A stretch of 53,101 nucleotides of DNA from Caldithrix abyssi (GTDB lineage: Bacteria > Calditrichota > Calditrichia > Calditrichales > Calditrichaceae): positions 1 through 53,101 of the forward strand of contig DRQG01000031.1 of NCBI GenBank assembly GCA_011369465.1. Direction: 5' to 3'. The notes below the pieces were generated by a model. The model made no database searches, was not told the origin of the DNA, and saw only the letters and a program-made list of their open reading frames with translations. Both the position numbers and the translations under genes were made by a program. Shown here one piece after another: positions 34,666 through 42,360 of this stretch (the stretch's first letter is position 1; the number at the start of each line of letters is the position of its first letter).

Positions 34666-37600
34666 ATGAAGCAACCGGCCCATACATTTTTAGCCTTTTT
34701 TAGCATTACTATTCTCTTACCCTGTCTGTTGTTTTCGCAGACTTCGGCGCTGTCAAGGAATGGTTTCGACCCCGACTCGTCGGGGCAGGCAACTCTCAGC
34801 CCCCGTTCCCTGAGCCTGTCGAAGGGAACAGATGACGGCTTCGACAGGCTCAGCCTTCGAACCCTGAGCTCTGCCTATCCCGATTCGTTGGGATCGAAGG
34901 AAACGGATTTCCCTGGCTTCGACCCAGACCCGTCGGGGCAGGCAACTCTCAGCCTCCGTTCCCTGAGCTTCGCCTGTCCCGACTTGTCGGGATCGAAGGG
35001 AACGGCGATCTCTGGCTTCGATCCCACCGATAAGTCTGGACAGGTATGGCTTATGCTTCGACCCCGCCCAGTCGGGACAGGTAAGGCTCAGCATTCGCCT
35101 TTTCGTTCTTCGAGCCTGTTGGAGAACGATCAAACCGCCAAACAACCATACATTCTCCACAACCCCACGCCGATTCTGTTAAAACGTATTGAAGAAAGCG
35201 GTGGCATAGTGGCTACGTATCGCAGGGATAAATCTGCACTGGTTTATTTATACCCGCTGTTGGCACAACGCCTGCAATCTGAAGGGCTGGTTCTGCGCCA
35301 AACAAAACCGATGGCAGCCGCTGTCGATACGCTTTCATCCGGCCTGCAAATCGGCAATTGTTATCACAACTATCAAGCGGTAATTGGCATTCTGGACAGC
35401 TTATCCGCTCTCTATCCGCACATTATGCGGGTGGAAAACATCGGCTTTACCGAGGAAGGACGCTCTATCCGGGCTGTATGCCTGAGCGATAATGTGAATG
35501 AAAGGGAAGCGGAACCGGAAGTCTGTTATATTGCCGCTATGCACGGCAATGAAATACTGACTCAGGAGTTGATGCTGTGCTTTATAGATTCCCTTTTACA
35601 AAATTACGGCAGTGACGAACGAATAACATCCCTTTTGGGGAGTACGCAAATCTGGATCATTCCCAATATGAATTTCGACGGCAGCCAAAGCTTAAGTCGT
35701 TTTAATGCCAATGGAGTGGATTTAAACCGTGACTTTCCCGATCGTGAATATGATATGATAAGCGACACCAGTGGAAGAGCGGCGGAAACAAAGGCTATAA
35801 TGAATTGGCGTGCGGAACACCATTTTGTGTTGGCCGCCAATTTTCATACCGGCGAGCTGGTGGTTAATTATCCCTGGGATAAAAACCTGCCGGGCGAACA
35901 GGGTTATGCCGCCACTCCGGACGATGAAGTGTTCGTGCGGCTGGCTCTCAGTTATTCCCGCCTAAATCCAATGCTGTACAACAATCCCAGGTTTGAGCGG
36001 GGCATTGTGAACGGTGTGTTGTGGTATGCCATCGACGGAAGTATGCAGGATTGGGCTTATCACTGGCACGGCACTTTTGAAACAACCATTGAGATTGCAA
36101 AAAATATCATGCCCCCTGCAGACAGCATCCGTTATTATTTTTCGCAAAACAGCGCATCCATGCTCAGCTACCTGGAACAGGTACATAGCGGGATTGCCGG
36201 TACGATAACCGACGTAGAAAGCGGACAATCCATCGCCGCCGAAGTAGAGATACTGGGTATAGACAAAATCATACATAACAATCCTTCAAAAGGTGATTAT
36301 TACCGATTGCTTGAACCGGGGAAGTATGATGTCCGCATTAGCGCTGCAAATTATGAAGCCCGGGAATTTAAGGATATTGTCGTTGATTCGGGCAGGGTAA
36401 CCCACTTAGACGCAGCGCTGACGCCACGCAGTTACTTTATCGTATCGGGTACTGTGCTTGACTCTTTGGATTACCAACCCATAGAAGATGTTCAGGTTTA
36501 TCTGACACGATATGATCGAATTGTGGGTATGGACACAACCGCGACCGATGGAAGCTACGCGCTGAAAGCCGAAAAGGGCCTGTATGAATTGGTATTTGCC
36601 CGTAAAAACTATTTTAAACGGACAGATTCTCTGTATATAGAGACCGATCTAAAGCGAAATATTAAATTACTTAAAGTAATCCCTTCGATTGTTGCCGGTC
36701 GGGTTGTTTTGAGCGACGGCGGCAGCCCGGAGGGAACGGTCGTTTATTGCCAATCCCACACCGACACCCTGAGTGAAAATGCCGTTTTTCGGCTGGACAG
36801 CCTGCAGGGTGGAAAAATACACCTATTCGCCTGGCAGCAAAAATATGCTGCTTCGCATATCGATACAACACTCGGAAACGGCGACAGTTTATGGGTTGTC
36901 ATAACGCTGTCTCCGGGGGATAACGAATTTTACAGCGATTTTGAAGAAAGCGACGGCGGTTTTAAGGCACGTGGTGAGTGGGAATATGGAGAACCGATCG
37001 CAGGACCGGATAAAGCGTTTAACGGAGCTATGTTATGGGGAACCAATTTGGATGGAAATTATTACAGCGGCGCGCATAAAGCCGTATTGGAATCACCCCT
37101 TCTCTTTGTGCAGGGGATGGTTTTACCGCAAATTGAATTCTATCACTGGTACGATTTCGAAGAAAAATACGACGGCGGGAATCTGAAAATTTCCGTGGAT
37201 GCCGGCGAAACCTGGCAATTAGCTCATCCCAGCCCGGATTATCCTTTAACGGCTTTATCCGAGCAGTATGGCAATCCTTTGGGCGGACAGGCGGCCTATT
37301 CCGGGCAGAACGGCGCCTGGCAGCGCGTTAGTGTGGATTTAACAGAGTATAAAAACAGCGCCTCACTTTTGGTGCGATTCGAAGCGGGAATTGACGAGCA
37401 AAAAGAAGCCCTGGGCTGGTATATCGACCGTTTTCATTTGTATGACGCCAATGCGACGAAGATGATGACTGCGCTACGGGAAGACAGAAATTCCGACCCG
37501 CAATTATCCGTGGCGCCCAATCCGGCTAATCCGTTAACCTCGGTAAGGTTTTATTTGCAGAAAAAACAATTTGTTACACTTAATATCTATAATATACTGG

Positions 37601-37767
37601 GACAAAAGATTAAAACACTTTATGAAGGTGAAATGGAAAGCGGCTGGCACAGCTTAATCTGGTGGGGTCGAAACAATGCCGGCCTGCCGCAGTCTTCCGG
37701 TGTGTATATCATTCGTTTGCAGATAGATAAAAAACAGTGGAAACAGAAGTTTATATTAATACGCTAA
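34666..37767 (+). CDS. Secreted M14 zinc carboxypeptidase with repeat-expanded N-terminus and C-terminal sorting-type domain
   Basis: After a signal peptide (residues 1-25), residues ~31-156 are encoded by inserted palindromic repeats and look low-complexity (G-F-D-P-D-S-S-G-Q-A). The peptidase domain spans ~230-500. Zinc ligands are H293 and E296 in M-H-G-N-E and H394 in F-H-T-G-E-L; the catalytic Glu is E476 in F-E-T-T-I-E-I, which fits carboxypeptidase D/M-type M14 enzymes. Two transthyretin-like regulatory domains follow (~505-590 and ~595-680), then a beta-sandwich region and a C-terminal ~85-residue domain with P-N-P-A-N-P, Y-N-I-L-G-Q-K and S-S-G-V-Y. That end resembles FlgD-like/type IX-type sorting domains of FCB bacteria and implies secretion to the cell surface. 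The gene diverges from GSCFA and meets the efflux gene tail to tail with a 4-bp overlap. Confidence 0.88.
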   Translation: MKQPAHTFLAFFSITILLPCLLFSQTSALSRNGFDPDSSGQATLSPRSLSLSKGTDDGFDRLSLRTLSSAYPDSLGSKETDFPGFDPDPSGQATLSLRSLSFACPDLSGSKGTAISGFDPTDKSGQVWLMLRPRPVGTGKAQHSPFRSSSLLENDQTAKQPYILHNPTPILLKRIEESGGIVATYRRDKSALVYLYPLLAQRLQSEGLVLRQTKPMAAAVDTLSSGLQIGNCYHNYQAVIGILDSLSALYPHIMRVENIGFTEEGRSIRAVCLSDNVNEREAEPEVCYIAAMHGNEILTQELMLCFIDSLLQNYGSDERITSLLGSTQIWIIPNMNFDGSQSLSRFNANGVDLNRDFPDREYDMISDTSGRAAETKAIMNWRAEHHFVLAANFHTGELVVNYPWDKNLPGEQGYAATPDDEVFVRLALSYSRLNPMLYNNPRFERGIVNGVLWYAIDGSMQDWAYHWHGTFETTIEIAKNIMPPADSIRYYFSQNSASMLSYLEQVHSGIAGTITDVESGQSIAAEVEILGIDKIIHNNPSKGDYYRLLEPGKYDVRISAANYEAREFKDIVVDSGRVTHLDAALTPRSYFIVSGTVLDSLDYQPIEDVQVYLTRYDRIVGMDTTATDGSYALKAEKGLYELVFARKNYFKRTDSLYIETDLKRNIKLLKVIPSIVAGRVVLSDGGSPEGTVVYCQSHTDTLSENAVFRLDSLQGGKIHLFAWQQKYAASHIDTTLGNGDSLWVVITLSPGDNEFYSDFEESDGGFKARGEWEYGEPIAGPDKAFNGAMLWGTNLDGNYYSGAHKAVLESPLLFVQGMVLPQIEFYHWYDFEEKYDGGNLKISVDAGETWQLAHPSPDYPLTALSEQYGNPLGGQAAYSGQNGAWQRVSVDLTEYKNSASLLVRFEAGIDEQKEALGWYIDRFHLYDANATKMMTALREDRNSDPQLSVAPNPANPLTSVRFYLQKKQFVTLNIYNILGQKIKTLYEGEMESGWHSLIWWGRNNAGLPQSSGVYIIRLQIDKKQWKQKFILIR
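34755..35130. repeat. Cluster of palindromic repeats inside the M14 peptidase coding sequence
   Basis: Within ~375 bp there are many copies of short palindromic units of intergenic type: CCCTGAGCCTGTCGAAGGG, its complement CTTCGACAGGCTCAG, and Y-C-C-C-G-A-C-T-N-G-T-C-G-G-G variants. Two larger near-copies start at about 34762 and 34915, 153 bp (51 codons) apart. The reading frame stays open throughout, so the repeats are translated. The same family (CCCTGAGCGCAGTCGAAGGG) occurs as plain intergenic sequence at 41798-41817 and 42088-42107. Confidence 0.88.
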
Positions 37768-41738: not shown

Positions 41739-42360
41739 TGGCTGTCGGCTATCGGCCTTTAGCTTTTGGCTATAGGCTGTTAGCTGTTGGCTACTTGCCC
41801 TGAGCGCAGTCGAAGGGTCAAGTTCTTAATTCATAAATCGTTAATCGGTGTTCGAGATTCCTGGCTGTTGGCTGTTATTTTTCAGTTATTAAGTTACTAA
41901 GTTATTGAGTTATTGGTTCTCAATTCCTAAATCGTTAATCGGTGTTCGAGATTCAACCTTTTGTTGTTGGTTACTAGGTTATTAAGTTATTAGATCGGCT
42001 CTCGGCTGTTGGCTGCCTGCCCTGATCCCGCCCGGGCGGGACGAAGGGTCGGCTCTCGGTTATTGGCTATAAGCTATTGGCTGCCTGCCCTGAGCGCAGT
42101 CGAAGGGTCAGTTAACAGTTATCAGTTCTTAATTCCTAAATCGTTAATCGGTGTTCGAAATTCATAGCTGTTGGCTGCCGGCTCTTGGCTCACCCTGAAG
42201 CCCCTATACCCGATGTATCGGGGCGGAGAATCCCCTCCCGCGAAGGTTGCGATTGGTAATAGGGTATAGTATCTTTTGCGCTCCTAATGGAAAAAAAGCG
42301 ATTCCATCGCTTCGAGCGATGGAATCGCTCACTAAAGCCTTTTATTAGTGAGGAACAGCA
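41739..42360. repeat. 622-bp repeat-rich gap between mtaB and miaB
   Basis: No gene is visible. The stretch is a patchwork. Directly after the mtaB stop come 7-nt-period units of the form N-N-G-G-C-T-N, later 8-nt-period units such as AGTTATTA and AGTTATTG. Three near-copies of TAAATCGTTAATCGGTGTTC lie at about 41824-41860, 41918-41954 and 42126-42163. Two copies of CCCTGAGCGCAGTCGAAGGG lie at 41798-41817 and 42088-42107, a C-C-C-G-C-C-C-G-G-G-C-G-G-G palindrome near 42026-42041, and C-C-C-G-A-T-G-T-A-T-C-G-G-G near 42212. The 3' end holds a long perfect hairpin before miaB. Confidence 0.88.
42291..42329. promoter_or_regulatory. 14-bp perfect hairpin upstream of miaB
   Basis: AGCGATTCCATCGC at 42297-42310 pairs with its exact complement at 42316-42329 around the loop TTCGA. 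Seven A residues precede it, so on the minus strand it reads as a hairpin followed by seven T, i.e. a terminator-like structure, though no minus-strand gene ends here. On the plus strand it sits 32 bases before the miaB start and would lie in its leader RNA. Whether it terminates, insulates from the repeats, or regulates is open. Confidence 0.7.

Follow-up and report, generated by a model that had tools for sequence, protein, structure and literature searches.

The gene of a predicted secreted peptidase in Caldithrix abyssi carries a segment that is best explained by REP-like dispersed palindromes which inserted into the gene and were kept because they lie in frame, are stop-free and fall into permissive loops or junctions. 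We put the probability of this reading at about 85%. The gene is located in the window, by which we mean the whole stretch of 53,101 nucleotides that was analysed. Alignments with orthologues or paralogues further indicate that at least six genes of the genome harbour this repeat family in frame. The genome is a 4.31 Mb draft in 161 contigs, of which 1.6 Mb (37%) was read base by base. Since the other 63% was searched through patterns and protein queries only, six is to be read as a minimum where composites of other types are concerned. Moreover, as only open ORFs were inspected, the preservation of the reading frame is partly a matter of ascertainment.

The peptidase ORF (34666-37767, plus strand, 1033 aa) encodes an M14 zinc carboxypeptidase (Pfam Peptidase_M14, E 1.9e-54), which according to Pfam also has carboxypeptidase regulatory-like domains and a C-terminal tail similar to FlgD_ig and Por_Secre_tail. 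The nearest solved structures in the PDB are those of gp180 carboxypeptidase and carboxypeptidase M. The motifs HGNE, NFHTG and TTIEI, in which M14 enzymes have their zinc ligands and catalytic glutamate, were all found. The ORF begins with a signal-peptide-like stretch, MKQPAHTFLAFFSITILLPCLLFSQ (34666-34740, plus strand), the position of which matches the N-terminal hydrophobic stretch of the orthologues. It is followed by a composite of palindromic repeats (34755-35130, plus strand) that encodes residues ~30-155, between the signal peptide and the pro-region. A sequence-only reading of this DNA had claimed that about 125 residues after the signal peptide are encoded by palindromes. This claim was confirmed, as the ORF is open throughout and the insert folded much more strongly than its dinucleotide shuffles (z -6.1 for DNA and -7.1 for RNA).

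Two larger units had been described as lying 153 bp apart, and a direct-repeat search recovered them at this spacing, as 55-nt units that are 93% identical (34761-34815 and 34914-34968, both on the plus strand). The core CCCTGAGCCTGTCGAAGGG, translated as ...SLSLSKG, is located at 34808-34826 on the plus strand. An inverted core at 34839-34853 on the minus strand (CTTCGACAGGCTCAG on the plus strand) is the perfect partner of 34810-34824, and the two 15-nt arms are inverted copies of CTGAGCCTGTCGAAG. The insert also contains CCCGACNNGTCGGG palindromes and the inner palindromes CCCGACTCGTCGGG (34771-34784) and CCCGACTTGTCGGG (34978-34991). Peptides predicted from the repeat DNA of the six genes include those of the GFDPDSSGQATLSPR type and of the ALSEVEG type. 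An antisense ORF of 135 aa (34753-35160, minus strand), seen in the ORF list and in the six-frame openness, is produced by the palindromic segment and was not regarded as a gene. The codon usage of the insert is not coding-like: a model trained on the long ORFs of the genome gave it a score of 0.016 per codon, compared to 0.184 for the remainder of the peptidase, where the lowest 130-codon window was not below 0.142.

Orthologues of the peptidase were found in three genomes of the same bacterial family, where identity across the query used was 49-55%. A fourth orthologue comes from the same class (45% identity). In all four aligned orthologues (L002-L005), the N-terminal hydrophobic stretch joins the pro-region directly, and nothing conserved is found in place of the segment. 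At the pro-region junction, the window gene reads YILHNPTP where L003 reads YVLENPNP. The open frames of the orthologues comprise 911-917 aa, compared to 1050 aa for the window gene. The sequence-only reading had named a conserved, non-repetitive sequence at this place in orthologues, or a translation start after the repeats, as results that would speak against it. The first of these is contradicted by the four alignments. In the second case, the repeats would be 5′ untranslated DNA and the frame upstream would be open by chance. Other members of the family do lie in over-extended ORF starts (L064, L081 and L115 18165-19373, the last of which likely starts after its repeats), and the same has been reported for many N-terminal REPs (PMC3733652). 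These three loci were left uncounted, since the probable real start coincides with or follows their repeats. In the peptidase, however, the upstream 25 residues are intact, in frame, signal-peptide-like and positioned as in the orthologues, and an enzyme with a secretion tail would lose this N-terminus. A start after the repeats is disfavoured because the export signal kept by the orthologues would be lost, and in a heptosyltransferase, a Peptidase_MA protein and the sorting-domain proteins described below, the inserts are internal and conserved on both sides. We therefore consider a late start very unlikely.

The least likely explanation is that repeat copies were misjoined in the assembly or that the gene is a decaying pseudogene. 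Short repeats can mislead the assembly of such a draft. However, no other locus read has the same arrangement, and the best relatives are 65-81% identical. In addition, the remaining frame of the peptidase is intact with its catalytic motifs kept, and frame-keeping inserts are present in five other genes.

The core CTGAGCN(1-8)GTCGAAG was found in 153 exact copies genome-wide, whereas the backwards pattern was not found at all. Together with the missing segment in the orthologues, this supports the earlier proposal that the gene was invaded by a dispersed repeat. The core has the form CTGAGC-N2/3-GTCGAAG with an outer stem that is variable but complementary (GTTCC/GGAAC, TGTCATC/GATGACA, TCACC/GGTGA and others), and occurs singly, inverted or in tandem composites. 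In the outer stem, pairing reached 96% at position 1 and 87% at position 2, compared to 62% and 40% with shuffled partners, and C-G, G-C and T-A pairs replace one another. This covariation suggests that the hairpin, not the sequence, is what is kept there. Within the 1.6 Mb read, only 13 of 121 cores are located in called ORFs, while 86% of this DNA is coding (binomial P ~1e-77, with the clustering of copies ignored), and four of these 13 sit at over-extended ORF starts. When distinct gaps were counted, cores were rarest in divergent gaps (4 of 106) and more frequent in tandem (45 of 461) and convergent ones (8 of 55), which is the distribution known for REPs from PMC3733652. A slightly stricter core was detected in 51 of 146 genomes with a patchy distribution that includes unrelated families, some with high counts (e.g. 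126 in G101 and 58 in G130). In G101, an unrelated genome in one contig rated 100% complete, cores are often closely paired in inverted orientation where genes converge, and convergent ORFs enclose 16 of the 30 copies sampled.

The insert had also been assigned to the same family as intergenic DNA at 41.8-42.1 kb of the window. This holds for the core of ~20 nt that both have in common (in the best local alignment, 20 nt at 90% with E 0.008), but the rest differs, and the intergenic DNA represents another subclass with a 24-bp unit. Closer relatives of the peptidase composite are found elsewhere in the genome, for instance 161 nt at 81% in L083. Subclass A units are located at 41794-41817 (CTTGCCCTGAGCGCAGTCGAAGGG) and 42084-42107 (CCTGCCCTGAGCGCAGTCGAAGGG), and a variant with a GC-rich palindromic centre, CCCTGATCCCGCCCGGGCGGGACGAAGGG, at 42020-42048, all on the plus strand. 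The gap 41740-42200, between two MiaB/MtaB-type genes, is full of repeats, among them a TTCTTAATTCNTAAATCGTTAATCGGTGTTCGAGATTC-type sequence that occurs three times and heptamer-like GGCTATTAGCTGTTGGCT arrays. Elsewhere in the genome, GGCT arrays adjoin most 24-bp units.

Family members in frame inside other genes, a count of which had been suggested as a check, were also found. A Peptidase_MA_2 protein (L099 15684-16811) has an insert of 66 aa that is missing in six of six aligned orthologues, and a GT9 heptosyltransferase (family 9 glycosyltransferase, L079 9371-10567) has one of ~56 aa that is missing in four of four; in both proteins, the two sides are conserved. The Peptidase_MA composite shares its reading frame with that of the window peptidase and is 69% identical to it over 67 residues. 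The heptosyltransferase composite, on the other hand, is read on the opposite strand (LRQAQGT), and its peptide is unrelated to those of the two peptidases. A GldG-like protein (L115 13346-14872), in which FDPAQDRPG fits a relaxed core, was rejected, as its orthologues match it in length and carry similar residues, so that the stretch is native.

The three other hosts are T9SS-type Por_Secre_tail C-terminal sorting domains whose loop behind ISYQL contains PALSEVEG-type octapeptides. A CotH-like protein (L074) has one octapeptide (+8 aa, +24 nt), a beta-helix protein (L138) two (+16 aa, +48 nt) and an uncharacterised protein (L094) three (+24 aa, +72 nt), while this loop has exactly 7 residues in 27 of the 36 sorting domains read. 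The extra DNA consists of exactly 24, 48 or 72 nt of CCTGCCCTGAGCNNNGTCGAAGGG-type units, located between ATC(A/C)GCTATC(A/G)GCTG and a TCGGC-type sequence (TCAGATG in L074). Uninterrupted paralogues provide empty sites from the same genome, e.g. ATCAGCTATCGGCTG directly followed by TCGGCCGTCAACGATG. The second and third units of L094 are similar to the first and second of L138; because of this likeness the three cases may share ancestry, and the insertion events may therefore be fewer than six.

It is conceivable, although we hold it for rather doubtful, that insertion of the 24-bp subclass favours one site, [AG]GCTG/T[CT][AG] (slash, point of insertion), and that the repeat in this way recurrently lengthens one secretion-tail loop in 8-residue steps. 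This site would be common in the intergenic heptamer-like arrays and, by a coincidence of codon choice, spelled by the sorting-domain motif ISYQL/SAVSDV, an idea that is just as tentative. In a list of 29 subclass-A units, [AG]GCTG precedes 16, and TC or TT follows all units other than the tandem ones. Empty-site-like strings are frequent between genes, and the three sorting domains carry their inserts at the identical site. Homologous conversion from intergenic arrays, or one ancestral insertion copied between paralogues, is a possible alternative. In another sorting domain (L143 18698-18865), the loop comprises 16 residues (PARSKARKGSVNSYVE) and may represent a degenerate insert of the repeat. 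Many sorting domains (L168, L169, L173, L176, L183 and L185) read ISYRLSAVSDVE-like at the affected loop; their DNA (TATCGGCTATCGGCTGTCAGC type) resembles the intergenic GGCT arrays, and conversion between arrays and genes is possible.

The distribution over hosts could also mean that selection maintains the insert peptides, which would then serve as export spacers or surface-variable tails and would not merely be tolerated. Five of the six genes encode products predicted to be exported or membrane-associated, namely the peptidase, the Peptidase_MA protein with its C-terminal hydrophobic segment and the three sorting-domain proteins, and the 24-bp unit has no stops in five of six frames. However, the sixth gene encodes the presumably cytoplasmic heptosyltransferase, in which opposite-strand reading gives an unrelated peptide. 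The non-coding-like codon usage of the window insert and the strong overall depletion of cores in genes also argue against selection for the peptides, which we regard as improbable. Insertion with subsequent tolerance is the reading that we follow.

REPs are hairpin-forming sequences of 20-40 bp in high copy number, often more than 100. The present family likewise forms hairpins in high copy number, is mainly intergenic and prefers the 3′ sides of genes over divergent promoters. It also occurs in the inverted or composite arrangement of BIMEs and REPINs, as seen from the inverted core pair in the window and the repeated +/- pairs in G101. With the REP/BIME/REPIN and RAYT systems (PMC2817692, PMC3116915) it shares more than 100 hairpin copies, inverted pairs and the avoidance of genes, but unlike in those systems, no Y1 gene flanked by the present family was found. 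None of 39 Y1-transposase loci had a core (≤1 mismatch) in the fetched flanks, so that the RAYT arrangement, a Y1 gene (PF01797) flanked by the same repeat, was absent from these loci, and no Y1 gene was found in G101 with its 126 copies. No link to a RAYT was found in these loci; the Y1 genes of the genome are flanked by other palindromes. These are two IS200-like genes, L061 (G000:C51 ~10.8 kb) and L062 (G000:C98 ~20.1 kb), each with its own palindromes: ACGACT-AGTCGTGGG and AAACCGATGAATCGGTTTC types; CAGGGCGCTGCCCTG and TTCTCTC-GAGAGA types. The superfamily tags were also rare in the 15-nt 5′ flanks of the cores (GTAG in 4 of 121, CGTC in 6 of 121). Because both the tags and a linked RAYT are missing, we call the family REP-like and not a GTAG/CGTC or RAYT-linked member. 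The region had no hit in Rfam, and a plasmid search with the translated tandem unit gave weak matches only. The core spellings were found in no paper of the full-text open-access literature, although the family may have been described before in other sources.

REPs that carry GTAG or CGTC tags and lie within genes have been reported in Opitutus, Rickettsia conorii, Thauera, Xanthomonas and others, with clusters that encode 43-82 aa and with REPs at about the same recB site in two Xanthomonas species (PMC3733652). Like the present family, they are short palindromes that lie for the most part between genes, above all in tandem or convergent gaps, form inverted dimers and clusters, and are in part located in ORFs. 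Here, in contrast, the stem base shows no enrichment of either tag and the core differs. Moreover, composites here reach ~125 aa and lie mainly in exported or membrane proteins, where those REPs are found in repair enzymes. One loop is also extended in three sorting-domain paralogues, by exact multiples of 24 bp. A review (PMC2229807) traces the first description of palindromes in frame to work on Rickettsia (RPE; Ogata et al. 2000). The likeness to these elements that the sequence-only reading had drawn is right in kind. As with the RPE and the Wolbachia palindromic elements, selfish-looking palindromic DNA lies in frame in conserved protein genes, is missing in orthologues, is predicted to be read through and also occurs between genes. 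RPEs, however, measure 105-146 bp, whereas the unit here is ~20-24 bp, with composites of at most ~376 bp, and the host belongs to another lineage and has a 4.3-Mb genome.

We propose that the family amplifies at the DNA level and that a cluster inserted between the signal peptide and the pro-region of the peptidase. Copying would proceed via a hairpin or single-stranded DNA intermediate, possibly by a Y1/HUH-type enzyme or by recombination between copies. Most insertions into genes would be purged, and the survivors would be those in frame and without stops, in loops or domain junctions. The insert peptide is presumably made and would be near-neutral, so that surviving inserts add mostly passive spacer peptide. 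The 1-2-3 series of the sorting domains probably arose when further 24-bp units were gained and paralogues converted one another. Another possible means of copying is conversion between sorting domains and intergenic arrays that have AGCTATCAGCTG and TCGGCTGTCAGC in common.

Intragenic REPs and RPEs are already known, and the case presented here is another variant of that phenomenon. The repeat family, the host group and the exact series of one, two and three units in a secretion-tail domain look undescribed. Protein-coding palindromes are thereby extended to another repeat family and bacterial lineage, beyond reduced intracellular genomes. Annotators should bear in mind that repeat DNA can underlie recurrent peptides in predicted proteins, for example ALSEVEG, RSLSLSKG and LRQAQGT. 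With six genes that have empty sites in orthologues or paralogues, including the 1-2-3 series, neutral insertion versus new function becomes directly testable.
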